A stretch of DNA of 23,215 bases from a virus. The notes below the pieces were generated by a model that made no database searches, was not told the DNA's origin, and saw only the letters and a program-made list of their open reading frames with translations. The stretch's first letter is position 1. Every line of letters starts with the position of its first letter. The stretch is taken from IMG/VR virus record IMGVR_UViG_3300006917_000160, positions 1 through 23,215 of that record. One strand, given 5' to 3'. Of the stretch, positions 1 through 16,784 are shown one piece after another. The position numbers and the translations under genes were made by a program.

Positions 1-510
1 GAACTCGATCGGCCCCGAGGCAGATAGCACCGGCTCCTTCGGTATCCCCACGTAGTTGTTGAAGAACGCGACCGAGCGGCAGCGCCCCAATAGCATCTTG
101 ACCAACTCGGGCTGCACGCTGGTGGCCAGCAGGAAATCGACCGGCGGCACGGTGGCCCACTCGTGCAGCATCTCCGGCGTCTGGTCCACCGTGAACCCGT
201 GCGTGACCTTGTAGCCCTGCTCGTGGAGCCAAACCACAGCCGAGTTGCAGCCCCACACTTGGTCACCTTCTGCGGTACGGGCCGCGTGCTCGCGGAGGCT
301 CGGACCCGCCCCGCAGATCACCAAACTCTGACCCGCCGCCTCGTTCTCGCGCACGACGGGAAGGCCATGCTCCTTCCGTATCGCCGCGTTCGCCCGGATG
401 TACTCCTCGAAATGCTGACCGACCGGGTTCTGGAGGTTGATGTGGTGCTCGACCTTCGGTGAGGCCTTTCGTGCCAACCGCTCGAGCCGCCTGCGCTCTG
501 CCCGCTTCAC
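1..510 (-). CDS. Maf/DUF115-family protein (putative nonulosonic acid transferase), 3' end outside window
   Basis: This is the first 170 residues of a protein that continues past the left edge. It starts at GTG 510, where GTGA overlaps the TGA stop of the minor head gene, and no ATG is available nearby. A basic N-terminus is followed by a helical stretch (NPVGQHFEEYIRAN, residues 28-41) and then CGAGPSL at 66-72. That glycine loop and its surroundings match the DUF115/Maf family (6-hydroxymethylpterin diphosphokinase MptE-like fold). Maf proteins in Campylobacter, Helicobacter and Aeromonas transfer pseudaminic or legionaminic acid to flagellin. DUF115 proteins also occur in phages with no known role. 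Placement directly after head genes, together with a Pse-like pathway upstream, makes glycosylation of a virion protein the leading inference. Family assignment is fairly sure; the transferase activity is inferred. Confidence 0.72.
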   Translation of the reverse strand, partial: MKRAERRRLERLARKASPKVEHHINLQNPVGQHFEEYIRANAAIRKEHGLPVVRENEAAGQSLVICGAGPSLREHAARTAEGDQVWGCNSAVVWLHEQGYKVTHGFTVDQTPEMLHEWATVPPVDFLLATSVQPELVKMLLGRCRSVAFFNNYVGIPKEPVLSASGPIEF

Positions 511-1448: not shown

Positions 1449-1641
1449 CCTCACCCACTCGCACGACGATGATCTCGGTATAACCGGTCGGATGCGCTCG
1501 GTTGTACTTGTCCACCAAGTCGAGATCCACCTGAACACCCATAAGGGACAACGACCGCACGATCAGATTCGACTCGAACACACGCACGGTCAGCGCGTGC
1601 TCGAGCTCGACCCGGTCCATCCGTGCGAAGTCCTTGGTCAT
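1429..1641 (-). CDS. Small hypothetical protein between portal and minor head genes
   Basis: This is a 70-residue protein with no recognised domain. It starts at ATG 1641, which overlaps the portal stop as ATGA, and ends 20 bases inside the minor head gene. It is mostly helix/strand with a hydrophobic centre (NLIVRSLSLMGVQVDLDLVDKY without signal or membrane character) and an acidic C-terminus. The tight coupling to portal and head genes suggests a structural or assembly role, which is inference only. Confidence 0.7.
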   Translation of the reverse strand: MTKDFARMDRVELEHALTVRVFESNLIVRSLSLMGVQVDLDLVDKYNRAHPTGYTEIIVVRVGEDDADGA

Positions 1642-3164
1642 GCCGCGTTCATCGTCGGGTCGTTCCGCTGGACCGCCGCGATCTCGGCAGCCTGCGCGGC
1701 CTTCATCTCACGGTCGGCCATCCACTCGGCCAACAGGACCTCCACGTCCTCGTCCTCGGGGATCCGGCCGCCTTCCTTGAGCGCCTTGAGGACCGCACGC
1801 TCAGGGAATCCCGCGTTGACCAGCGTCGCGTAAGCCGTCATCACGTCCGCGCCCATCAGCAGGTCGTCATAGTTGCGGTTGATCGTGATGGACCCGCCCG
1901 ACGGCTGACGGAGATACTGGGCGTGGAAGTACATGGCCCGCTCGACCCCGTCCTGTAGACCCCTGGCCGTGACCGACAACGACGAATCGCTGGTGGCCTT
2001 GTCGAGCCGCTTGGCCTCGGCCGTCTCTGCGGACCGCTTCTGCGGTGCGAGCATCGCCAGCCCAAGCGCGCCCATCTCGCTTTTCAGGTTCTCGAGCGCG
2101 TTCTGGCAGTCGGATAGCGCATTCCCGCTGTGAGACACATACTCGGCCTTGGCCGACGGGTCGCGGGACACCAACGCGGTGTTCGCTCCGATCGTCAACG
2201 CGCCCTTCGGGTTGCCCTGGTCGTCGCGCTCGACCTCGTGGCCGGCGAGGTGCAGGAACCCGACGCACGTCTTGTACCGCGAGAACGCCTCGTCAGAGGC
2301 TTGCTGGTAGTGCGCGACGTTCAGGTACGCGAGATCGAGCAGCGGCGGATCGGAGTCGAGGATGCCACGGCGTCCCGAAGTCGTGATCTCGGCCAACGGG
2401 ATCTCGTTCTGGTTCCCGTAGATCCCCGCGTCCACCACCTGCACCCGGTTGTCCGACGTGACCTCGAGCAGCCGGTACCCGACAATCCCCATCTCCCGGT
2501 AGAGCACGCGGTAGCGGATCTGCTCGACCTCACCGAACTCACCGTCGGGCACGTAGTGGCACTCGCGGAGCACCACCTGAGTCAGCACGGTTCTCCCGTT
2601 CTCGACCGCGGTGCGCCACGAGAGGATGTTCTGCTTGAGGATCGGTACCCAGTACGGGCGGATCACCCACTCGTCGGCGGCTGACTGGGTGCCCCCTGTC
2701 GCGGGGAACTCCACGAGGATGCACGTATGGCCGTCGATCAGCGCGTCGATCATCCGGTCCCGCAGGAACACGTCGCCGTGCGTGCCCGCGTTGTCGATGT
2801 TCTCCCATTGCTCGAGGAACGGTGCGGGCACGTCCTTGCCCAAGATCGGGTCCTCGGAGAACACCAAGCCGGTCAGCCCCTCCACGGTGCGGCGGTAGGC
2901 GTTGAAGAACACGCTACGCTGTAGCCGCTCGTTGTAGGCTTCCAAGTCCTCGCCTGGGGCCTGGGGCAGATACCGCGTGCCCGCGCCCTTCACCGACTCG
3001 TTGCCGCCCCAGAGATCGCGGCACCGTTCGACGCCCGGACCCTGGCGCTTGGCCGCACGGCTCGGGGTCGAAGGCAGGTCCTTCTCGGTCTTTGGGAGAG
3101 CTGCGAGCGCCTGACCCTCGGGCCGGAGCGGACCCGCACCCGGGACGTTACCGTATTCGGCCAT
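1638..3164 (-). CDS. Phage portal protein (DUF4055 family)
   Basis: This 508-residue protein matches the DUF4055 family, which acts as the portal in many siphoviruses: a dodecameric ring at the head vertex through which DNA is packaged and ejected. Family hallmarks include the segment GEDLEAYNERLQRSVFFN followed by a helix ending in GLVFSEDP (about residues 71-106). A central part reads IPLAEITTSGRR and DLAYLNVAHYQ, and a C-terminal helical region follows QKRSAETAEAKRLD. The start at ATG 3164 lies four bases after the terminase stop. The gene is followed by ATGA coupling to the 70-codon gene. The order TerS-TerL-portal-minor head is standard, which supports the call. Confidence 0.92.
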   Translation of the reverse strand: MAEYGNVPGAGPLRPEGQALAALPKTEKDLPSTPSRAAKRQGPGVERCRDLWGGNESVKGAGTRYLPQAPGEDLEAYNERLQRSVFFNAYRRTVEGLTGLVFSEDPILGKDVPAPFLEQWENIDNAGTHGDVFLRDRMIDALIDGHTCILVEFPATGGTQSAADEWVIRPYWVPILKQNILSWRTAVENGRTVLTQVVLRECHYVPDGEFGEVEQIRYRVLYREMGIVGYRLLEVTSDNRVQVVDAGIYGNQNEIPLAEITTSGRRGILDSDPPLLDLAYLNVAHYQQASDEAFSRYKTCVGFLHLAGHEVERDDQGNPKGALTIGANTALVSRDPSAKAEYVSHSGNALSDCQNALENLKSEMGALGLAMLAPQKRSAETAEAKRLDKATSDSSLSVTARGLQDGVERAMYFHAQYLRQPSGGSITINRNYDDLLMGADVMTAYATLVNAGFPERAVLKALKEGGRIPEDEDVEVLLAEWMADREMKAAQAAEIAAVQRNDPTMNAA

Positions 3165-3168
3165 CGTG

Positions 3169-4527
3169 TTAGATCCTCATCTTGAGCAGGACGGGTGCGT
3201 TGTCCGTGAGCGGGAACCGATATTCGACGTAGTAGCCGAGCGCGTCCGAGATGTGGGTCAGCATCGGGTCGGCCTTCTTGTCCAACTCGCCCGATCCGCC
3301 CTTGAGGGTCCGCACGCCATCCAAGTCGCGGACGACGTGTTCAGCGGTCACCGGATCGACCATCAACCGGATCGTACCGTCCATAGAACAGGCTCGTGAG
3401 TTCACGGCATTGACGCGAGCGCGTTCTGCTGGGTTTTCGCTCTTGACATGGCAGACCAACCGGGTGCCGAACCCCCGCATCCCCGATTGTGGGTCGCCGT
3501 TGCGTAGGATCCGCTCGACCAGCTCCCAGTCGGAGCCCTCGACCTTCGCCGTCCCTCTGGACCCTCCGGTCGCGTCGCCGTAGACCTCCACGCGCCCCTC
3601 GTGCTTCCCCCAGTCCTGCAAGATCCGCCGGCAGACCGCGGGCGTGTTGCTATTGCTCGGGATCCAGACTTCACCGATCACCGCCGTACCGATCGGCTCA
3701 CCCGGCAGCGGTAGCGGCAACTCCTGGGCAATCGCCGCGACCCCCGGTGCCACGTTGTAGTCCAGGCAGACGATCAGCGGTTGGCGCGGGTTGTAGCGGT
3801 CCCTGAGTCGTGCCTTGTTCGCGTCCGTGAACGAGTAGTAAGCGCGCCCCTCGAAGTTGACGAAGCTGGCCTCGTACTCCTGCTGGTAGGTCAGCGGGTC
3901 TAGGTCCCGCTTCGCCGCCTCGATCTCCTCCTCGGGCAACACCTCTGCGGACCGCCAGGTGAACGCGCCCCACTCGCTGTCCGCGCCCTTCTCGAGCATC
4001 TCAGCGCGAGCCCGCTCATACGTCTCGTAGTAGTGGTTGCGACCCTCGGGTACGCCGATCAGATCGCACCAGCCCTTACGATCGGACAGCGCGGGACGGA
4101 CGTTCTCGCCCCACGCCTTGGGCTTCATGTTCGCGTACTCATCGAGCACCCCACCGTCCCACGGCGAGCCCTCGATACGCTCCGGCTTATCGAGGCCGAG
4201 CACCCAGATCTCCGCGAGCGGCAGACGGATCACTAACTCGGTTTCGGACGGCTTCCCGCGCCACCACGGCTTGGTCAGCTTCTTCAGGTCCTCCCAGTAG
4301 ATCCGCTTGGCCTGGTCGCGGGTCGGTGCCGCAGCGAAGAAGCGGGCGGTGTCGCTGTGCGTCACGCCGTGCAGCGCCAACGCACGCTTGACCAGCTTCC
4401 GCTTCGCACGCTCCGTCTTGCCCGACCTTCGGCCCGCAGGCACGACGTTGAACCGATGGGGCGACCGGACGTAGCCCATCTGCTGCTCGACCTTCCGCAG
4501 CGGATACCAGCGCGCGGGCAGGCTCAT
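3169..4527 (-). CDS. terL: Terminase large subunit
   Basis: This 452-residue packaging motor has both catalytic halves. The N-terminal ATPase has a Walker A, AGRRSGKT (residues 31-38), and a Walker B, GVLDE (126-130). The C-terminal RNase H-like nuclease has three candidate metal-binding aspartates: LDYN (D256), YGDATG (D318) and HISDALGYY (D428). It drives ATP-dependent translocation of DNA into the procapsid and cuts the concatemer. The start at ATG 4527 overlaps the TerS stop as ATGA. Length and layout are normal for the family with no sign of damage. The packaging mode (cos or pac) cannot be read from the protein alone. Confidence 0.95.
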   Translation of the reverse strand: MSLPARWYPLRKVEQQMGYVRSPHRFNVVPAGRRSGKTERAKRKLVKRALALHGVTHSDTARFFAAAPTRDQAKRIYWEDLKKLTKPWWRGKPSETELVIRLPLAEIWVLGLDKPERIEGSPWDGGVLDEYANMKPKAWGENVRPALSDRKGWCDLIGVPEGRNHYYETYERARAEMLEKGADSEWGAFTWRSAEVLPEEEIEAAKRDLDPLTYQQEYEASFVNFEGRAYYSFTDANKARLRDRYNPRQPLIVCLDYNVAPGVAAIAQELPLPLPGEPIGTAVIGEVWIPSNSNTPAVCRRILQDWGKHEGRVEVYGDATGGSRGTAKVEGSDWELVERILRNGDPQSGMRGFGTRLVCHVKSENPAERARVNAVNSRACSMDGTIRLMVDPVTAEHVVRDLDGVRTLKGGSGELDKKADPMLTHISDALGYYVEYRFPLTDNAPVLLKMRI

Positions 4528-4919
4528 TCACCATCCGCCCCGTCCATCTCGCGCACAGCCTCGAGGAGTCGCTTGGCCTCGGCGGTCGCGTCGAGCTCGT
4601 CGCCGTCCGGCTTGTCCCGCCACCCCATCCGGTTCTTCATCCACCAGATGATCGAGGTCGGATCGGGCGGGAAGTACTTGTCTTGCTTCCTGAACCCGAT
4701 GCAGCGCCGGTAGAGCGCGTTCATCACCTTGAGATCCGCGGCCCGCTTGCCCTCGCGGGTCGCCCTGGCGAACTCCGGGTACTCGTTCCGCCAGTTGATG
4801 ACGGTGTTCCGCACGACTCCAAAGAAGTCGGCCAAGTCCTCGTCCGTCGCCCCCAACAGGCACAGCTTGCGCGCCTGTTTGGCGAACTCGGGCTGGTACT
4901 TGGTTTCCCCTATGGGCAT
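4524..4919 (-). CDS. terS: Terminase small subunit
   Basis: This 131-residue protein should recognise the packaging site and present it to TerL. Residues 14-45 form a helix-turn-helix (CLLGATDEDLADFFGV then TVINWRNEYPEF), typical of small terminase subunits. The segment YFPPDPTSIIWWMKNR, followed by MGWRDK, is a hallmark of one large TerS family. The start at ATG 4919 has CGGAG five bases upstream. This is the first gene after a 75-base non-coding gap, so it may begin the packaging/head transcription unit, although read-through from the sugar cassette is also possible. Confidence 0.9.
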   Translation of the reverse strand: MPIGETKYQPEFAKQARKLCLLGATDEDLADFFGVVRNTVINWRNEYPEFARATREGKRAADLKVMNALYRRCIGFRKQDKYFPPDPTSIIWWMKNRMGWRDKPDGDELDATAEAKRLLEAVREMDGADGE

Positions 4920-4994: not shown

Positions 4995-6026
4995 CTAACC
5001 CAGGTCCTCGATCGCCAAGCGCAGGGCTTCCGCGTTCCGCTCCGCGCTCCGCAGATCGTTCGTCTGTAACTGGAGCAGGCGGGGCTGTAGATCCTCGGCT
5101 ACGGGGCACCCACCGATCGGTGCGAGGTGCCGGAACGCTGGCTCGTGGTAGGTCAGCCGCCACGCCGCATAGGGCCGCTCGCCCCCGTGCTCCACCACCC
5201 GGTCCGCCAGCGCGATCGCACGTTCTGGTGTGTCCACCGCCACCGCATATGCCCAGTAGTCGTGGGTCCACCCGGTCGGGACGTACTGCGGGGTCAGCCA
5301 CTCGCAACTGGCAACCACTTGCCGGTAGAGATCGGCGCACTCCAGTCGCGCCCGCTTCCACACGTCAACCCACAGCGCGCCGGTCAGGTGCTCGCGCTCC
5401 AGCACGGCCGCCACACCTTCGCGGGCCACGATGTCACTCATCCGGTAGTTCCAGCCAAGCGTGTGATGTCGCTCGTAGGTCGGGCTCTTGAGGACCGCCG
5501 GGTCGATCCGCGGTTGGTCGGCTCGCATCCTGTACCCGAGGCTCGAGAAGGACCGGGCTTCTTGGGCCGCGCCTTCGTCGTCGGTCACCAAGACGCCCCC
5601 CTCGCCCAGCGGGAGGATTTTTGAAGCCTGCAAGCTATACGACGTGAATAGCGCGTTACCGTGGGGCCTGAGCGTCTGTGCGGCATCGTCCACCGTGACA
5701 CCAGCCCGGTCTGCTGGGGCGTCTGGGTAGTGGATCCCGTACAGGGACACAGGCACATACGCCGCTGCCCGTTCCTTGGGCGGGCGCATTAGCCATGTCG
5801 CGGGGTCAACATCTTGGAACACCGGCCGACCGCCCGCGTGGAGCACCGCTATGGTGGTCGCAGCCATAGTCAGGGGCGGGACCGCAACATCTGCCACGTC
5901 CACGCCGATAACAGCCAGCGCCGTGTGGATCGTCGCCGTCCCGTTGCAGAGAGCGATTCCGTATCGTGCTCCCACGTAGTCCGCGAAGGCTCGTTCGAAC
6001 TGGGCTACAGCGGCTCCGTTCTTCAC
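4995..6026 (-). CDS. DegT/DnrJ/EryC1/StrS-family sugar aminotransferase (PseC-like)
   Basis: This 343-residue PLP enzyme should transfer an amino group from glutamate to C4 of a UDP-4-keto-6-deoxy sugar. It has the family N-terminus (FERAFADYVGARYG), the DDAAQ motif for the PLP pyridine ring (D114) and the Schiff-base lysine in SLQASKILPLGEGG (K136). Key residues look intact. I chose the GTG at 6026: GTGA overlaps the stop of the cytidylyltransferase and AAGAGGT lies eight bases upstream. A GTG at 6044 is also possible. With a PseB-like dehydratase and NeuB-like synthase in the same operon, the likely role is the PseC step, giving UDP-4-amino-4,6-dideoxy-L-AltNAc. Other 4-aminosugar products are possible. 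Confidence 0.85.
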   Translation of the reverse strand: MKNGAAVAQFERAFADYVGARYGIALCNGTATIHTALAVIGVDVADVAVPPLTMAATTIAVLHAGGRPVFQDVDPATWLMRPPKERAAAYVPVSLYGIHYPDAPADRAGVTVDDAAQTLRPHGNALFTSYSLQASKILPLGEGGVLVTDDEGAAQEARSFSSLGYRMRADQPRIDPAVLKSPTYERHHTLGWNYRMSDIVAREGVAAVLEREHLTGALWVDVWKRARLECADLYRQVVASCEWLTPQYVPTGWTHDYWAYAVAVDTPERAIALADRVVEHGGERPYAAWRLTYHEPAFRHLAPIGGCPVAEDLQPRLLQLQTNDLRSAERNAEALRLAIEDLG

Positions 6027-6598
6027 GCCCCGTACCTCTTGCACGCGGCCTCATAGTCAGCCTGAGTGTCGATCGTCCAGACCTCCCCGACGGGGGGGCG
6101 AGGCGGTGGGGTAGGGAAGATCGCGTGGGTGATGTGCTCGCGGTGCGGTGAGTCGAACGGGGTGCTGGCCTGGGCCGCGTCCAGCATCGCCAGCGTGAAG
6201 GCTTCCGCGCCCTGCTCGACGGGTAGGCGCTCCCCGTCCACCACCCGCATCACCGCAACGAGATCCTTGAACGGATCGTCGGGGGTCCACCGCACGATCA
6301 CAGAGTCAGGGTGCCAGCGATAGAGGTGCGCGCACTCCCAGAACCGGCCGAGTACGTCGGTTTCCGGTCCACGGTAGGCGAACACCTTGGCACCGATCCT
6401 CCGCAGCTCGTCACCGAGCAGACCATCCGAGTCTTTCGCTGGGATGGCAACGACCACGTTGTCCGCGAACCCGAGCCGCGCCCTCCGCACCGCCCACTTG
6501 ATGAGCGTATCATCCCCGAGTTTGAGCAGCATCTTCCCAGCGAGTCGCGTGCTGTTGTACCTCGCCTGGATGATGCACAGCGGCTCGATCAGTCCCAT
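6023..6598 (-). CDS. SpsF/NeuA-like cytidylyltransferase (PseF-like)
   Basis: This 191-residue protein has the nucleotidyltransferase N-terminus IIQARYNSTRLAGKML (residues 9-24), very close to the family pattern IIQARxxSTRLPGKxL. The metal/sugar-site region reads VRWTPDDPF (102-110) and the C-terminal segment WTIDTQADYEAA is also typical of SpsF/PseF. It should activate a nonulosonic acid with CTP to the CMP-sugar. The ATG at 6598 is preferred: GGGGGA lies about seven bases upstream and it places IIQAR near the N-terminus, as in relatives. ATG 6613 is the alternative. The gene overlaps the previous one by ten bases and the aminotransferase by four. At 191 residues it is shorter than full-length PseF/NeuA (about 230), so fine specificity is uncertain. 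Confidence 0.82.
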   Translation of the reverse strand: MGLIEPLCIIQARYNSTRLAGKMLLKLGDDTLIKWAVRRARLGFADNVVVAIPAKDSDGLLGDELRRIGAKVFAYRGPETDVLGRFWECAHLYRWHPDSVIVRWTPDDPFKDLVAVMRVVDGERLPVEQGAEAFTLAMLDAAQASTPFDSPHREHITHAIFPTPPPRPPVGEVWTIDTQADYEAACKRYGA

Positions 6599-6930
6599 AC
6601 CGGGATCCCCCATCGCTCGGTCAAGTGAAGGTGCCGGTGGATCTCGAGGCCCCTCCCGTTGTCACCGACGTACACCCGCTGTCCCAGGTCATCGAGATCA
6701 GCCGTCCAGATGTACCGCTTCCAGATCGGGTTGCGCGGGCCGTTCACGTAGAGCCAGGCGAGCGCGGCGGCATGGGGCAGGAAGCCAGCATCCGCAGGGT
6801 CCGCGTTCACCGTGTCAGTCGGGGCTCGGAGCATGGGCCGCACCGTCCGAGTGTAGAACGCATGACCCTCGAACCAGTCCTGCTTGTAGAAGAAGTCTGG
6901 GTGCGCCTCGCGGATGCCCTTGAGGTTCAT
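6589..6930 (-). CDS. Hypothetical protein in sugar cassette
   Basis: This 113-residue protein has no family I recognise. It starts at ATG 6930, which overlaps the stop of the preceding 58-codon gene as ATGA. The longer open frame to 7290 only shadows other genes. It is rich in aromatic residues and histidine (FFYKQDWFEGHAFYTR near the start, GRGLEIHRHLHLTERWGIP near the end) and looks like a compact soluble domain. It lies directly before the cytidylyltransferase, so a link to the sugar pathway is possible. It is too short to be a PseG- or PseH-type enzyme of normal size. Confidence 0.72.
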   Translation of the reverse strand: MNLKGIREAHPDFFYKQDWFEGHAFYTRTVRPMLRAPTDTVNADPADAGFLPHAAALAWLYVNGPRNPIWKRYIWTADLDDLGQRVYVGDNGRGLEIHRHLHLTERWGIPVWD

Positions 6931-7103
6931 AGGGCTTCGTCCGCGCTTGTCGTCCCGTCCTTGGCGATACTCACCACCGTGCGGAACGGCTGTCCAGGCT
7001 CGTCTACGTGCTCCAGCTTCTCGAGGCGCCAGCCGGACCGCACCAACTTCTCGACGTGCCGCTCCACCTCGCGGATGCTGTGCTGGCGGTCCTTCGAGTT
7101 CAA
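6927..7103 (-). CDS. Small hypothetical protein with TTG start
   Basis: This 58-residue protein starts at TTG 7103. TTGA overlaps the stop of the DUF218 gene and GGGAGGGG lies four bases upstream, so this start is well supported. There is no ATG in this part of the frame. The sequence is a charged helix (EVERHVEKLVRSGWRLEKLEH) followed by a strand-like end and resembles small phage proteins with a 'GWxLxxLxHV' pattern, but I cannot name a family. It is coupled to both neighbours by four-base overlaps. Confidence 0.65.
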   Translation of the reverse strand: MNSKDRQHSIREVERHVEKLVRSGWRLEKLEHVDEPGQPFRTVVSIAKDGTTSADEAL

Positions 7104-7675
7104 CGCCCCTCCCAGAACCGGAGGTAGTCGATCCCCTCGCTGTACGAGGCTGTGTGCCCCTTCTCGCCATACAGCAGGATCTTGTCCCCCTCGATCTCGA
7201 GCAACTCGGCCCGCGTCTCCTGCATCCCGAGCGGTGCCGCGAACCACGCACCCGCGGCGGGAGCGGGGACAAGCCGGATCGTGTGCTCACAGCCCTGTTC
7301 CTTCAGAGCCTGAAGGAACGTCAGGAACGCGCGCGGGAGGTGATAGGACGACGCGACCAGCGCGAGACTGAGCCACCCCTTCTTGACCGCCATGTCCACC
7401 ACGTTGACGGCCTGCTCCCGGGTGTTCATGCTCGCCACGTCAACGGTCGCGTGTTCGATCCCGAGCATCTGAGCCGCGTGCTCCGCACCGATCCAGCGGT
7501 CCGGCTCGTGCCTGCCACCCGACAGCACGATGTGGGGTGGGCGGGTATGCTGTGCCAGCCACCGGGCCGCACCGAGCCGCGGAAGCGCGTCCTCCCCGCA
7601 CAGCACGACCATCGCCTCCGCGTCGTGCATCGGGCTCGACAGCACAGCGAGCGTGAACGTCAGAGCCTCGTTCAT
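7100..7675 (-). CDS. DUF218 (YdcF/SanA/ElyC-like) family protein
   Basis: This 191-residue protein carries the DUF218 signatures in order: VVLCGEDALPRLGAARWL (residues 23-40), the strand and turn IVLSGG (49-54), MNTREQAVN (83-91) and ASSYHLPRAFLTF (108-120). DUF218 proteins have a Rossmann-like fold and are linked to envelope and polysaccharide metabolism (ElyC, SanA), but their reaction is unclear. Unlike SanA/ElyC this one has no membrane anchor, so it should be cytosolic. The start at ATG 7675 overlaps the zinc-ribbon gene as ATGA. Inside this cassette it could act on a nucleotide sugar or a lipid-linked intermediate, which is speculation. Confidence 0.82.
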   Translation of the reverse strand: MNEALTFTLAVLSSPMHDAEAMVVLCGEDALPRLGAARWLAQHTRPPHIVLSGGRHEPDRWIGAEHAAQMLGIEHATVDVASMNTREQAVNVVDMAVKKGWLSLALVASSYHLPRAFLTFLQALKEQGCEHTIRLVPAPAAGAWFAAPLGMQETRAELLEIEGDKILLYGEKGHTASYSEGIDYLRFWEGR

Positions 7676-7869
7676 GTGCCCTTCCGGTAGGTGAACGTGA
7701 CGTTGTAGAACGCCCCACAGCCTGGGCATTGCACGTTCTTCCAGACCCGTCCGTTGCGGGTGTACTGGTCGCCTTCGGCCTCCGTGGTGTCCACCTCCAC
7801 CTCCTCGCACTCGGGGCAGGGGAACACGAGATAGCCGAACCGCTCGAGGACCCGCCCGCCGATGCTCAC
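7672..7869 (-). CDS. Small zinc-ribbon protein
   Basis: This 65-residue protein has two Cys pairs, CPEC (C18, C21) and CPGC (C48, C51), spaced as in zinc ribbons. It starts at GTG 7869, where GTGA overlaps the synthase stop. The longer open frame upstream is only a shadow of the synthase. It may bind nucleic acid or serve as a structural or rubredoxin-like domain. Nothing ties it to sugar chemistry except its place between the synthase and the DUF218 gene. Confidence 0.7.
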   Translation of the reverse strand: MSIGGRVLERFGYLVFPCPECEEVEVDTTEAEGDQYTRNGRVWKNVQCPGCGAFYNVTFTYRKGT

Positions 7870-8612
7870 AGCATCGCCTCGAGCTTGCGGATCTCGCGCA
7901 CCATCGTCCCGAACTGGGTCGCGGTCAGGCTGATGTTCGCCTCCAACTCCGACGGCTCCTCGTCCAACTGGATATGGCACTCGATGACATGGACGCCATC
8001 TCCAGCCGCAACCGCGTAGACAGGGACCAACGGGTCGATCCCGTGATACGAGAAGCCGTCGCAGCCCGCACACTCGGTTAGGCTGACCTGCTTCTGCGGG
8101 TAGCCTTCGGGGCAATACAGCACCAACCCGTCACCCGGTTGCCATTGCGCCTTCCGCCGACTCACCACCACCGGCTTACCCGTCGCCAGCACCGCGGTGC
8201 GTAAAGCGTCGTTCTGGTTGTCGAGCGCCGCGATCTTGTACGTCGGGCAGCCCAACGACTCCATGAGCGCCAACGAGTCGGGACCGAACACCGAGGCGAA
8301 CCACGGCATCCCGATCTCTTTGCAGAAGTCCACAAGTTGCGGGAACCAATGGAACGGGGTCTGCGCCTTCTCGTAGAGCTGTCGCATCGTCCATCCCTGC
8401 TCACCCCATTGGGACGGGGCGGGCCCGTCACCCCTCAGAGCCACGAGCTCGTCGGGCGTGTAGCATTGGAACTTGATGATGTCCGCACCCGCTTCCTTCG
8501 CAGCCGCGATCAGTCGGATCGCCTTGGTCGGGCTCCCGTTGTGCGCGTTGGAGATTTCGGCCACCACCCGCACGGGATGGCTATAGCCTACCTCGAGGCC
8601 GGCGATCTTCAC
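7866..8612 (-). CDS. NeuB/PseI-family nonulosonic acid synthase, lacking the SAF domain
   Basis: This 248-residue TIM-barrel enzyme should condense PEP with a hexose derivative to give a nine-carbon nonulosonic acid. Family motifs appear in order: VVAEISNAHNGS (residues 16-27), IIKFQCYTPDEL (45-56), YKIAALDNQND (125-135), a GKPVVVS strand (145-151), LYCPEGYP (165-172) and VHVIECHI (207-214). It starts at GTG 8612 by GTGA overlap with the membrane-protein stop. Full NeuB/PseI proteins are about 340 residues and end in an antifreeze-like SAF domain that helps close the active site of the partner subunit. This one stops right after the barrel. It may be active without it, or need a partner. Sialic, legionaminic or pseudaminic specificity cannot be read directly; the PseB-like neighbour favours the last. 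Confidence 0.85.
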   Translation of the reverse strand: MKIAGLEVGYSHPVRVVAEISNAHNGSPTKAIRLIAAAKEAGADIIKFQCYTPDELVALRGDGPAPSQWGEQGWTMRQLYEKAQTPFHWFPQLVDFCKEIGMPWFASVFGPDSLALMESLGCPTYKIAALDNQNDALRTAVLATGKPVVVSRRKAQWQPGDGLVLYCPEGYPQKQVSLTECAGCDGFSYHGIDPLVPVYAVAAGDGVHVIECHIQLDEEPSELEANISLTATQFGTMVREIRKLEAML

Positions 8613-8818
8613 TTCGCTACCCACTTGCCGAGCGAAGTGAGAACCCCCGACACCCACGCCAGCGCGAGGTACCAATGCGCGACCGTCCAATCCTGCTTCC
8701 ACCAGGCCATAAACGCCCGCCACTCAACCAGCACGAGGCCAAGGGCCGTGACATTCAACACCAGCGCGACCAAGATCAGCACGAGCCCGAACCATTCCGC
8801 GTTAGTGGCGTCTTTCAC
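8609..8818 (-). CDS. Small two-helix membrane protein
   Basis: This 69-residue protein has two predicted membrane helices (about residues 9-32 and 46-65) joined by a short polar turn (WKQDWT). It starts at GTG 8818 with GTGA overlap to the dehydratase stop and ends with GTGA overlap to the synthase. The size and topology fit a holin, but also a small accessory membrane protein. No endolysin is nearby to support a lysis role, and its position between two sugar enzymes makes a role in that operon equally plausible. Confidence 0.68.
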   Translation of the reverse strand: MKDATNAEWFGLVLILVALVLNVTALGLVLVEWRAFMAWWKQDWTVAHWYLALAWVSGVLTSLGKWVAK

Positions 8819-9804
8819 CCGACCATCCTCCTCAGCGCCTCTACTGGCAACTGGTTGCTAGTTGTGTCGGATCGGTACTCGAACCCGTCGGCTACGGTGG
8901 GATAGGGCGGGGGGGCAACGTCGCCCCAGGTCCTGCGGTACGGCTCGATGACGTAGTGGGTGCCCGCGTCGTAGGTCCTGCGGGCCTCCTCGGAGCTCAC
9001 CAACGTCTCGTGCAGTTTTTCGTCACCAAGCCCGGTATACGTCACCGTCGCCCCCGGTGCGATTGCCTCCGCGAGCGTGACCGTCGTCGCGGCCCCGACC
9101 TTCGGGACGAACACCTCGCCGCCCCGCATCTGCTCGAGCGCCAAGACCACCAGCTCCACCGCGTCCTCGATCCGCATCCAGAACCGGGAGCAAGACGCAT
9201 CGGTGACCGTGATCGGGAGCCCCGCCGCTACCTGCGCCCGCCACTTCGGGACCACCGAGCCCGTCGAGCCGATCACGTTCCCGTACCGCGTAGCCGAGAA
9301 CCGCGTGACCGAGCCCGCGGCGTAGGTGTTCATGCCCAACCACAGCCGCTCGGCAAACAGCTTCGAGGCCCCATACGTCGTGCCCGGTGCAGCCGCCTTG
9401 TCCGTCGAAAGGAACACCGCCTTCTCGACCCCCGTCTCGATGCACGCCCGCGCCACGTTCTCGGTGCCGTCCACGTTGGTGCGGTGGGCCTCGCCTGGCT
9501 GCTCGTCGCACGCATCCACCCGCTTCAGCGCCGCCGCGTGGATCACGTAGTCCACGCCCTTACAAGCGTCGTAGACCCGCTGATAGTCCCGCACGTCCCC
9601 GATGAAGAACCGCATCCTGGGATCTCGGAACTCCGCGGCCATCTGGGCCTGCTTGCTCTCCGACCTCGAGAACACACAGACCCTTGAGGCTCCAGCCCCC
9701 AAGGCATGGGTCACGAACGCATGACCGAACGTGCCCGTACCACCCGTGCAGAGGATCGACTTGCCGGCGAGGGTACTGGCAAGTACTTGCGGGTTGCTGG
9801 TCAT
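8815..9804 (-). CDS. UDP-GlcNAc 4,6-dehydratase, PseB/FlaA1-like (SDR family)
   Basis: This 329-residue short-chain dehydrogenase/reductase is the likely first step of the cassette: UDP-GlcNAc to a UDP-4-keto-6-deoxy sugar. It has the NAD(P) loop TGGTGTFG (residues 20-27), HAAALKRVDACDEQP (89-103) and the STDK motif (133-136), followed by YGASK (144-148). The T-D-K plus Y eight residues later matches the PseB/FlaA1 active-site arrangement. Further PseB-like segments are ATRYGNVIGS (171-180), SRFWMRIEDAVELV (206-219) and GEVFVPK (229-235). The start at ATG 9804 has a G-run (AGGGGG) four bases upstream. It begins right after an intrinsic terminator, so its expression may depend on read-through or antitermination. 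The related 5-epimerase-free dehydratases (CapD-type) are the main alternative. Confidence 0.87.
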   Translation of the reverse strand: MTSNPQVLASTLAGKSILCTGGTGTFGHAFVTHALGAGASRVCVFSRSESKQAQMAAEFRDPRMRFFIGDVRDYQRVYDACKGVDYVIHAAALKRVDACDEQPGEAHRTNVDGTENVARACIETGVEKAVFLSTDKAAAPGTTYGASKLFAERLWLGMNTYAAGSVTRFSATRYGNVIGSTGSVVPKWRAQVAAGLPITVTDASCSRFWMRIEDAVELVVLALEQMRGGEVFVPKVGAATTVTLAEAIAPGATVTYTGLGDEKLHETLVSSEEARRTYDAGTHYVIEPYRRTWGDVAPPPYPTVADGFEYRSDTTSNQLPVEALRRMVG

Positions 9805-14343: not shown

Positions 14344-14891
14344 GCGTTGGGCTCCTGAGCAAGAGCAAAGAGCTGATCCGCAAGCCTGCGAATCTCTGCC
14401 TCGACGTAGCCACGGGTCCGATACTGCTCCCACGAGCCACGAGCGAATACCGGATTCTTCTTCTCCAAGATCGCGTTATACGGCGAATAGTCCCCGCTGT
14501 GGGCGCAGTCAAAGCCGAACCACCAGACGTGCTCCGGGCGACCCGGAAGCGCGACGTGGCAAATCCCCTTCGCCGGGTCCTCGCTTTCGGCGCAGGCAGC
14601 GGAGAACGTCAGCCCGCCGTGAACGTCGATGTCGTCCACAGGTCCCGGCGTATAGACTTCGCCATCCCATGAGCCGCTGTAGTCTTTCCCGTGGCACGGG
14701 TGGTCAGGACCCACCCCGACGTATCCGCAGAGGTGCCCGGAATGCGGCTGCCGAACAATCAGGCAGTCCAGCCCTGTCGCCTCGTCCACCCATTGCACCT
14801 TGTCGGGCTCGGCCTGCCACGGTCCCGGCCCCCACTCCGACTTGTCGATGTCTGCTCTGGTCCACTCCTGAACAGCGATGTTCTTGCTCAT
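14340..14891 (-). CDS. Conserved phage protein (WGPGPW...CGYVGV...VHGGLTFS type)
   Basis: This 183-residue protein belongs to a group often seen in phages and never given a function. The tell-tale segments are WGPGPWQAEPDKVQWVDEAT (about 20-39), GLDCLIVR, CGYVGVGPDHPCHGK, DIDVHGGLTFSAAC and VWWFGFDCAHSGDYSP, in that order. The start at ATG 14891 overlaps the preceding stop (ATGA). Conserved His, Cys and Trp residues suggest a metal-bound or enzymatic domain, but nothing more specific can be said. Confidence 0.8.
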   Translation of the reverse strand: MSKNIAVQEWTRADIDKSEWGPGPWQAEPDKVQWVDEATGLDCLIVRQPHSGHLCGYVGVGPDHPCHGKDYSGSWDGEVYTPGPVDDIDVHGGLTFSAACAESEDPAKGICHVALPGRPEHVWWFGFDCAHSGDYSPYNAILEKKNPVFARGSWEQYRTRGYVEAEIRRLADQLFALAQEPNA

Positions 14892-15340
14892 GCGTTCCCT
14901 CCCTCCTCGTTGGTCAGCCTCTCCGTAATCGGAGGAAGCAATCCGATGCTCTTGACCCACTCGACGTTGAGCCCCGCGTCTATCGCCTTCTGGATGTCGG
15001 TGGGCCACTCAGCGCCGTTCGGGAAAGTGCGCCTGAACAGAGCGACTTGATCACCACACGCTCCCTTGAGATGACCAACCCGGACGGTGACGGGAACCGG
15101 GACGGATCGCTCCAAGCCATCGCCGTAGCCAAAGCCGAAGCCGTAGCCGTCGCCGAAGCCATCGCCGGAGCCATAGCCATCGCCGGAGCCATAGCCATCG
15201 CCGAAGCCGGAGCCGGAGCCGGAGCTGTCGCCGTAGCCATCGCCGGAGCTGTCGCCATCGCCGTAGCCAAAGCCGTCGCCGAAGCCATCGCCGGAGCCGG
15301 ACAGCATCAGCGCCCAGCCCGGCACCCTACCGTAGATCAT
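14888..15340 (-). CDS. Gly/Asp/Ser/Tyr repeat protein with phage C-terminal domain
   Basis: This 150-residue protein starts at ATG 15340 (ATGA overlap; an ATG at 15346 is the alternative). Residues 14-75 are an imperfect repeat of G-D/S-G-Y/F, such as GDGYGSGDGYGSGDGFGDGY. Residues 90-133 form a folded domain, HLKGACGDQVALFRRTF... DAGLNVEWVKSIGL, that recurs in phage proteins next to similar repeats. The repeat may form a stacked strand structure or a disordered linker. Its DNA is a period-6 tract (see 15111-15303), so its length could vary between relatives. The role is unknown. Confidence 0.78.
   Translation of the reverse strand: MIYGRVPGWALMLSGSGDGFGDGFGYGDGDSSGDGYGDSSGSGSGFGDGYGSGDGYGSGDGFGDGYGFGFGYGDGLERSVPVPVTVRVGHLKGACGDQVALFRRTFPNGAEWPTDIQKAIDAGLNVEWVKSIGLLPPITERLTNEEGGNA
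15111..15303. repeat. Period-6 tandem repeat tract
   Basis: About 190 bases are built from imperfect six-base units such as GCCATC, GCCGGA, GCCATA and GCCGAA (plus strand). It encodes the Gly-rich part of the protein at 14888-15340. Unit identity is high enough for slippage or unequal recombination. Confidence 0.85.
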
Positions 15341-15627
15341 CCCCACACGTCAGACTCCCACCGCTCGACCGCCGCATCCGTCGCCGTGACCACGCTCGTG
15401 ATGTCCCGCAACTCGATGTCGGCGGGAGGCCCCACGCGGCATCCTTTGGTCGGGCCGTGCGCAGCGAGGCCCATGAACCCTTTCACGTCAGCCGACCAGT
15501 ACACGCAGTTGCGGCCCCTTCGCAGCACGATCGTGGGACCGTCCGTCTTGGTCGCGTAGCCGAAGAACACCCCACGATGAGCCGTGGTCACCAACACCGC
15601 CCGCTCCTTCTGCTTCCTTGTCGCCAT
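15337..15627 (-). CDS. DUF6948-like phage protein
   Basis: This 96-residue protein matches a small phage family through VLVTTAHRGVFFGYA (residues 11-25), RNCVYWSADVKGFMGLA (39-55) and ADIELRDITSVV (69-80). Its function is unknown. It starts at ATG 15627, with CGGAGAC immediately upstream, seven bases after the preceding stop. Confidence 0.8.
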   Translation of the reverse strand: MATRKQKERAVLVTTAHRGVFFGYATKTDGPTIVLRRGRNCVYWSADVKGFMGLAAHGPTKGCRVGPPADIELRDITSVVTATDAAVERWESDVWG

Positions 15628-15745: not shown

Positions 15746-16029
15746 CGCCCCTCCTTGAACCGCTCGAGCGCAGCGCGCTGGTCGCGGGCTATGGACTCGG
15801 TGCAGGCGATGAACGCCGCGACCTCGGCCGGTGTGCGGAATTGGTCGATCGTGAACCACGCTCCGTCGAAGCCCGACTCTTGCAGCTCCAACCGGCCGCG
15901 CACCTGCACGACGCGGTGGCGGGTCGGACTCTGGCTCGGCTCCTCGCGCCGCTTCTCCTGCTCGCGCTGTGCGTAGCCCAGGAGGATGCCGAGGATGAAC
16001 GCGGTGAGGGGGACGAGGACGGCGCTCAA
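15742..16029 (-). CDS. Single-pass membrane protein, TTG start
   Basis: This 95-residue protein starts at TTG 16029: TTGA overlaps the methyltransferase stop and GGGGGTG lies a few bases upstream. Residues 3-19 form a membrane helix (AVLVPLTAFILGILLGY) followed by a basic QREQEKRREE segment. This suggests the N-terminus is anchored with the rest in the cytoplasm. The soluble part contains GRLELQESGFDGAWFTIDQF. It is not long enough for a typical spanin and there are no lysis neighbours, so the role is unknown. Confidence 0.65.
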   Translation of the reverse strand: MSAVLVPLTAFILGILLGYAQREQEKRREEPSQSPTRHRVVQVRGRLELQESGFDGAWFTIDQFRTPAEVAAFIACTESIARDQRAALERFKEGR

Positions 16030-16784
16030 GCGGCACCCCCGAAGTCGAGGACGCCCTGACTCAGCCGATTGGCCGCGATCTCGCAGTACCGCTCCTCGAT
16101 CTCGATGCCGATCGCCCGACGGCCGAGATTCTTCGCGGCTACGAGGGTGGTCCCGCTGCCCATAAAGGGGTCGAGGACGAGGTCGCCGGGAAGCGTGGTC
16201 CACTCCACGAAATCGGTAGCGAGGTCACGCGGCTTCTCGTTGGGGTGCAGGCGGTCACGGACGGGCTGGGCGCGGCGGATGTTTGACTCCGCTCGATCCG
16301 GATTGACCCATGCCAGTTTCCCCCCCGAGCGGTGCGCCACCATGACCATCTCGTGGTCGCGGCGGAATCTCCATCCGAGGCCAGGACCGCGCCCGGTCTT
16401 GTCCCATATCACAGAGTGGAAAAACGCGAGCCCGTCCCGATCCATGCGCTCCGCGAGCCACGCGAACGTCGGGCGTGGTCCGCCGCCGCAGCAGCAGCAG
16501 CAGCAGCAGCAGTCGCGACGAAGTAGCGGGACAACCATACGCAAAGCCGCGTCAACCACCTCCCGCATTTCCTCCGGCGTATCGTTCGCTATTGGAACCA
16601 CGGGCCGCTGCCGCGCCCCGCCTACCCCCACACGAGCGCTCTGGAGGTCCCCGTCCATGTTCGCGTGACCGTATGGTGGATCGGTCCACAGGAGAGTCAC
16701 AGACTCTGGCACTAACATCGGAAGCGCGTCCCGACAGTCTCCGTGATAGATCGTCACCCCGTCCGCTTCGTAGTAAGGCGTCAT
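16026..16784 (-). CDS. DNA (cytosine-N4/adenine-N6) methyltransferase, beta-type motif order
   Basis: This 252-residue methyltransferase has catalytic motif IV, TDPPYGH (34-40), ahead of the SAM-binding motif, DPFMGSGTT (205-213). That is the order of beta-class amino-methyltransferases. HPNEKP (180-185) before the SAM motif is also typical. A run of eight cysteines (92-99) followed by GGGPRPTFAW is encoded by a CAG/CTG repeat; shorter Cys/Gly runs at this place are known in phage relatives. No restriction enzyme is adjacent, so it is probably an orphan enzyme that protects phage DNA from host restriction. ATG 16784 overlaps a 16-codon frame (ATGA). Confidence 0.9.
   Translation of the reverse strand: MTPYYEADGVTIYHGDCRDALPMLVPESVTLLWTDPPYGHANMDGDLQSARVGVGGARQRPVVPIANDTPEEMREVVDAALRMVVPLLRRDCCCCCCCCGGGPRPTFAWLAERMDRDGLAFFHSVIWDKTGRGPGLGWRFRRDHEMVMVAHRSGGKLAWVNPDRAESNIRRAQPVRDRLHPNEKPRDLATDFVEWTTLPGDLVLDPFMGSGTTLVAAKNLGRRAIGIEIEERYCEIAANRLSQGVLDFGGAA
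16488..16512. repeat. Trinucleotide repeat (GCA)8, coding for poly-Cys
   Basis: Eight perfect GCA units plus G (plus strand) are read as TGC codons on the minus strand within the methyltransferase. Perfect repetition of one of the two Cys codons points to recent slippage. Confidence 0.95.

Follow-up and report, generated by a model that had tools for sequence, protein, structure and literature searches.

Why should a phage carry, directly ahead of its terminase genes, a set of enzymes that would be expected to make a nine-carbon acidic sugar? The question is raised by IMG/VR virus record IMGVR_UViG_3300006917_000160, analysed here over its full 23,215 bp (the window), in which the minus strand carries the late genes. 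A preliminary description, made from the sequence alone, had recognised four enzyme families between positions 9804 and 4995 and had read them as consecutive steps of CMP-pseudaminic acid synthesis, for glycosylation of the virion or the host surface. The locus is probably a phage-borne nonulosonic acid (NulO) glycosylation system that is built into the head operon and directs cytosolic O-glycosylation of a head protein. This view draws on a six-gene core that recurs in other phages, on the linkage of that core to one head-module lineage, and on a gene for a Maf-like protein within the same operon.

Gene content and arrangement of the cassette

All four families are found at that place on the minus strand, and each passes its Pfam curated cut-off (Polysacc_synt_2, 271.6 bits; NeuB, 116.3; CTP_transf_3, 56.7; DegT, 136.1). 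The enzyme genes had been described as joined by overlaps of four to ten bases, which is correct when five interleaved open reading frames (ORFs) are counted and incorrect for the four enzymes alone. These are not adjacent, being separated by a probable transmembrane (TM) ORF (8818-8609), a zinc-ribbon ORF (7869-7672), a DUF218 gene (7675-7100), ORF F (7102-6927) and the gene for protein G (6930-6589). The frames from PseB through DegT are chained, each overlapping the next by a few bases, and they lead into the terminase genes as had been noted, with about 75 bp between the DegT stop at 4995 and the start of TerS at 4919. The enzymes fall within 4995-9804, and the feature as a whole extends further, to the Maf-like gene (also termed MptE-like) at 510-1. 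In order of transcription, the genes are:

8815-9804, minus strand: PseB-type UDP-N-acetylglucosamine (UDP-GlcNAc) 4,6-dehydratase, 329 amino acids (aa), core gene 1 (Polysacc_synt_2, 9e-81)
8609-8818, minus strand: small hydrophobic ORF, 69 aa, probably membrane (TM); no family match, no counterpart in relatives
7866-8612, minus strand: compact NeuB/PseI-type nonulosonate synthase, 248 aa, no SAF domain, core gene 2 (PF03102, 2e-33)
7672-7869, minus strand: zinc-ribbon ORF, 65 aa; no counterpart found in related cassettes
7100-7675, minus strand: DUF218/YdcF-like protein, 191 aa, soluble, core gene 3 (PF02698, 8e-14)
6927-7102, minus strand: small ORF F, 58 aa, TTG start; not conserved in related cassettes
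6589-6930, minus strand: protein G, 113 aa, core gene 4; conserved, 12-member family
6023-6598, minus strand: SpsF/PseF-type cytidylyltransferase, 191 aa, core gene 5 (PF02348, 4e-15)
4995-6026, minus strand: DegT-type pyridoxal phosphate (PLP) aminotransferase, 343 aa, short N-terminus, core gene 6 (PF01041, 2e-39)
4524-4919, minus strand: candidate TerS (terminase small subunit), placed before TerL
3169-4527, minus strand: terminase large subunit (TerL); 79 relatives in viral contigs
1638-3164, minus strand: portal protein; lineage tracks the cassette, relative in L005
507-1538, minus strand: MuF-type head morphogenesis protein, true start probably downstream of 1538 (PF04233, 2.5e-14; phrog_3517, 2.6e-53)
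1-510, minus strand: Maf-like (MptE/sialyltransferase-fold) protein, N-terminal 170 aa, cut by the window edge (PF01973, 2e-4; phage Maf-like profile, 1.9e-62)

An independent contig matches the window over 4,511 bp with 1 mismatch, and the DegT-TerS-TerL-portal layout is therefore not an assembly accident.

A six-gene core shared by divergent phages

Relatives were collected by scanning viral contigs with the synthase, aminotransferase and DUF218 proteins and then mapping all proteins. The fixed order PseB, synthase, DUF218, G, cytidylyltransferase, DegT recurs in about 12 other divergent phage contigs, at 48-68% identity for the synthase, dehydratase and aminotransferase. The core is complete in L003, L005, L006, L007, L011, L014, L017, L020, L025 and L128, and truncated in L012, L013, L015, L016 and L112; a cassette of the L112 type is found with all six genes in L227. 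Because this order is kept in other phages, chance is excluded. In the related cassettes, conservation does not extend to the hydrophobic, zinc-ribbon and F ORFs.

The compact synthase, the short DegT N-terminus and the missing pathway steps described below could be taken to mean that the genes are a passenger, or a decaying bacterial sugar cluster, in a metagenomic phage contig. Conservation of the gene order largely refutes this explanation. It also has against it the phage-only clade formed by the synthases, whose best GTDB relatives are only 33% identical, and dN/dS (nonsynonymous to synonymous rate) ratios of 0.27-0.33 for DUF218, cytidylyltransferase and DegT between L011 and L012 (changes in the synthase and in G are too few for an estimate), and we regard it as scarcely credible.

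Additional genes occur in or near some of these cassettes. Between the cytidylyltransferase and DegT genes, L003 (14216-14797) and L128 (3294-3776) carry a sulfotransferase-like gene, and L003 (12835-13782) and L025 (11537-12457) share an ORF (about 300 aa) that could not be placed in a family with confidence; either may decorate the sugar. L112 has a Mom-family DNA modification protein (4999-5901; PF25680, 2e-51) between cassette and terminase. Two remoter phage contigs, L004 and L009, contain PseB- and NeuB-like genes near each other, L009 together with a cytidylyltransferase gene.

Linkage to one head-module lineage

The six-gene core adjoins the genes for the portal, MuF, the MptE-like protein and the capsid. 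The associated TerL proteins form at least 4 groups, with 14-41% identity between groups, whereas the portals are 46-63% identical. By these comparisons the terminase was exchanged at least three times while one portal/MuF/capsid lineage stayed with the cassette. In L020 the arrangement differs: its terminase is upstream of the cassette, and the portal gene directly follows DegT.

Where contigs are long enough, the association is complete. The core is present in 10 of the 10 contigs with a Maf-like gene and at least 7.4 kb upstream of it, and accompanies 11/11 close portals (at least 50% identity) with at least 5.2 kb upstream, the window included; the Maf-like gene accompanies all 13 close portals with at least 3 kb downstream. 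L230, which sits at the portal-identity boundary, is too short for a judgement. A portal-alignment search found neither the core nor the Maf-like gene with portals of 45% identity or less, and TerL relatives that have no cassette also lack the MptE-like gene. The linkage is that of one head-module lineage, not of many independent gains.

A different NulO cassette was observed directly after or near the portal gene in L235 (8070-9951), L236 (6264-8090) and L237 (11621-16818). Its genes, assigned partly by eye, encode NeuB, a methyltransferase-like ORF, a NeuA-like cytidylyltransferase, a class III-type aminotransferase, a sugar-isomerase-like protein and a short-chain dehydrogenase/reductase (SDR). 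It resembles the six-gene core in having NeuB and a cytidylyltransferase in this position, but beyond these two there is no match, and none to the Maf-like protein. These contigs suggest that NulO genes entered phage head operons more than once.

The Maf-like protein

The Maf-like gene is located between the MuF and capsid genes, and its products in L006, L014 and L017 score above the PF01973 cut-off. Maf transfers CMP-activated nonulosonic acids onto flagellin in the cytoplasm (PMC4065374), and its PF01973 domain resembles the sialyltransferase Cst-II (PMC11339370). The phage profile matches a bacterial Maf (PF20157 plus PF01973) in Pontibacterium (E 6e-4) that adjoins NeuB and a cytidylyltransferase. 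Maf_flag10_N (PF20157), present in a bacterial Maf, was not found in 6 phage proteins, which are for that reason called Maf-like and not Maf.

Searched by sequence against the PDB, the Maf-like alignment gave only a chance match, and fold comparison was needed. An 11-member alignment was used to model the second L020 copy (mean predicted local distance difference test score, pLDDT, 73.4; predicted template modelling score, pTM, 0.79). Among PDB structures the model resembles the Maf glycosyltransferase 5mu5 most closely, with a Foldseek E of 5.5e-9 and a VIA-align Z of 16.6 across 224 residues. MptE/HPPK comes next, at Z 13.1, and then GT29/GT42 sialyltransferases from mammals and Campylobacter, at Z of about 8-9.5. 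Two Maf-like copies flank the capsid gene in L020 (12640-13620 and 16444-17451), L116 and L120. Two Maf-like genes per phage were also seen in L118 and L123.

Since the PF01973 fold includes MptE/HPPK, and since linkage could be plain co-inheritance, the protein might instead act as a small-molecule pyrophosphokinase, or have a structural role in the head, and be unconnected with the cassette; host transferases would then use the CMP-sugar. Maf is clearly first in the fold comparison, over more residues than MptE/HPPK, and where contigs are long enough the gene is found only in cassette phages, which makes this alternative quite improbable.

Enzymes of the cassette

In alignments of 10 to 13 phage proteins each, T134-D135-K136 and Y144..K148 of the PseB-type protein and the PLP lysine K136 of the DegT-type protein are intact and invariant. 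Both patterns had been pointed out in the preliminary description, and no loss of catalytic residues was seen. The best family model for the dehydratase is PseB (TIGR03589; 335.7 bits, under its cut-off of 407.75), and the top PDB match of its family profile is 2gn4, a UDP-GlcNAc C6 dehydratase (4e-110). The aminotransferase scores 106.5 bits with LegC and 100.8 with PseC, both far under cut-off, and the top PDB match of its family is a perosamine synthetase, which does not decide the substrate. The cytidylyltransferase profile has another cytidylyltransferase, 6oew, as its top PDB match (2.5e-22), and the enzyme is generic, matching 3-deoxy-D-manno-octulosonic acid (Kdo) and NulO types alike. 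None of the cassette enzymes reaches an equivalog cut-off.

The synthase starts at a GTG (8612), giving 248 aa, and scores 116 bits with the PF03102 NeuB barrel model (cut-off 22.1), in a match that omits about 50 model positions mid-barrel. A Pfam scan did not find the SAF domain (PF08666), which is present in a bacterial relative; the chain ends after the barrel. The 290-residue synthase chain 6ncs in the PDB makes a short synthase unusual, not unique. K47, S151, H190, E211 and H213 are intact and invariant in the aligned phage proteins. Motif comparison with NeuB/PseI assigns K47, S151, H190 and H213 to the phosphoenolpyruvate (PEP)- and metal-binding positions.

The phage synthases, 234-264 aa in length against 332-930 aa for the bacterial ones recovered, form one phage-only clade (support 100/99) apart from the cellular synthases included in the tree. 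The synthase alignment, scanned once against GTDB genomes, matched cellular synthases only, at 33% identity or less, so no prophage and no host were identified. Isolated phages contain remote relatives only (synthase, 2 records; aminotransferase, 6 records).

Identity of the sugar and missing steps

A pseudaminic-type sugar is favoured, not proven, by these comparisons. The window synthase scores 132 bits with PseI versus 98 with NeuB, 11 of 11 family members match both models (best E 6e-50 versus 9e-33), and the nearest solved relative is the pseudaminic acid synthase 8h2c (8e-46). The pseudaminic assignment originally made for the whole set is upheld to the extent that the synthase leans to PseI and the dehydratase to PseB; the aminotransferase and cytidylyltransferase do not discriminate. 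The description of the enzymes as consecutive steps does not stand, as PseG and PseH were each found in 0 of 12 phage records (the window and 11 related ones, possibly fragments, with the cassettes covered). The free hexosamine needed by the synthase is therefore unaccounted for, and the pathway would be shortened, completed by the host, or dependent on DUF218 or G.

The product could instead be another 2-keto-3-deoxy acid or an unusual amino-sugar acid (legionaminic-type, non-acetylated or 8-carbon). The near-equal LegC and PseC scores, the indifference of the cytidylyltransferase to Kdo and NulO types, the absence of PseH and PseG and the unusual UDP-linked route to CMP-legionaminic acid in Bacillus subtilis (PMC7439481) would all allow for such a product. 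With both the synthase and the dehydratase leaning the other way, it is on balance unlikely; it concerns just the nature of the sugar and would leave the architecture proposed here intact.

DUF218 and G are the only other invariant cassette genes and hence the natural candidates for supplying the hydrolysis or acylation that is missing, host enzymes being the alternative. The DUF218/YdcF domain (PF02698) scores 52.1 bits against a cut-off of 27.6, and the protein is conserved in 12 aligned cassettes. To our knowledge, no activity has been assigned to the DUF218 proteins YdcF, ElyC and SanA, and the system would offer a biochemical handle on them. Protein G, searched with the longer containing frame 6589-7290, has no match in Pfam, NCBIfam or PHROG, and no sequence relatives in the PDB. 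Its predicted structure is confident (pLDDT 86.3), with no Foldseek match under E 2 and VIA-align Z of at most 2.3; the absent fold match is no proof of a new fold. In 80 bacterial loci with NeuB, neither DUF218 nor G was seen next to that gene, and bacterial neighbourhoods thus offer no hint of what the two proteins do.

Proposed pathway and target

PseB would convert UDP-GlcNAc to a 4-keto-6-deoxy sugar, which the DegT enzyme would aminate at C4. UDP would then be removed and the amine possibly acylated, by the DUF218 protein, protein G or host enzymes. From the hexosamine and PEP, the compact PseI-like synthase would form a nine-carbon acid by condensation, which the SpsF-like enzyme would turn into the CMP-sugar, and the single-domain Maf-like protein would transfer the sugar to Ser/Thr of a head protein in the cytosol. 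The acceptor would most likely be the major capsid protein, modified before or during assembly.

The earlier proposal of virion or host-surface glycosylation is strengthened by the Maf-like protein in its general sense, a NulO cassette for glycosylation, and the virion is now favoured over the host surface because a search of 8 records (phage fragments, incomplete) gave neither a GT2 glycosyltransferase nor a Wzx-type flippase. That same result argues against a role for the CMP-sugar in altering host lipopolysaccharide, capsule or flagellin during infection, which might serve to exclude superinfecting phages or to mask the cell. In favour of such a role, surface glycans or flagellin are the usual destination of the products of NulO cassettes, Maf acts on flagellin, and phages are known to have genes for modifying the NulOs of their hosts (PMC12053666). 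The position of the Maf-like gene between MuF and capsid, sometimes as two copies around the capsid gene, and the tracking of the portal lineage by the cassette do not fit such a role, and we judge it improbable.

Several points weigh against glycosylation of the head by this cassette. They are the lack of SAF in the synthase and of the Maf N-terminal domain in the transferase, the sharing of the PF01973 fold with a pyrophosphokinase (MptE), the modelling of the Maf-like protein from the second L020 copy with moderate confidence, the hexosamine gap, and the origin of the linkage in a single lineage. To these may be added DegT in two frames in L016 (1-1242) and a short cytidylyltransferase frame in L011 (8483-8992), each of which may be sequencing error or decay. 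The stricter proposal, that capsid NulO glycosylation is self-contained, with a minimal single-domain Maf-type transferase and a shortened pathway in which DUF218 and G replace PseG and PseH, is a tentative one that we consider possible.

Repeats elsewhere in the window

A pure (GCA)8 run at 16488-16512, inside a DNA methylase ORF (16026-16784), encodes a cysteine run and may be a phase-variable tract. A tandem 30-bp/6-bp repeat at 15115-15299 encodes part of a Gly/Asp-rich protein (ORF 14888-15346).

Comparison with known systems

The closest parallel is Maf-dependent O-glycosylation of flagellin with pseudaminic or legionaminic acid in Aeromonas caviae, Campylobacter and Clostridium, which like the phage system combines NulO enzymes with a cytosolic PF01973 transferase. 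In the phage, the transferase gene is close to that of the presumed protein target. The phage version differs in its location in a head operon, in a transferase reduced to the central domain, in a presumed acceptor that is a head protein, and in having a compact SAF-less synthase and neither PseG nor PseH. Natural glycosylation of phage capsids is reportedly known from mycobacteriophage virions, in work by Freeman and colleagues in 2023 that is cited in PMC12691614. Glycosylated mycobacteriophages are known to use ordinary glycosyltransferases, and we know of no de novo NulO pathway in them.

The sps pathway for CMP-legionaminic acid in B. subtilis also uses SpsE/SpsF-type enzymes and supplies a NulO for a particle surface, the spore crust, but includes the SpsD acetyltransferase and SpsG and belongs to sporulation, with no phage-head linkage (PMC7439481). 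Acinetobacter phages encode EpaA/EpaB (PMC12053666) and O-acetyltransferases (PMC6586298) that act on nonulosonic acids; these alter host capsule sugars and involve neither synthesis from UDP-GlcNAc nor head linkage.

Searches of the open-licence literature turned up no previous description of a phage head operon that combines a NulO cassette with a Maf-like gene. The enzyme families are already known; what appears to be new is the combination, in such an operon, of a de novo NulO cassette with a single-domain Maf-like protein and a compact synthase, and without PseG/PseH. The gene set is small and testable (six synthesis genes, one transferase, one acceptor), and offers a compact SAF-less synthase and two candidate new enzymes, DUF218 and G, for steps with no assigned gene. 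If the proposal is correct, phages have turned the machinery that sugar-coats flagellin onto their own particles, and their virions gain a sialic-acid-like negative coat made from scratch.

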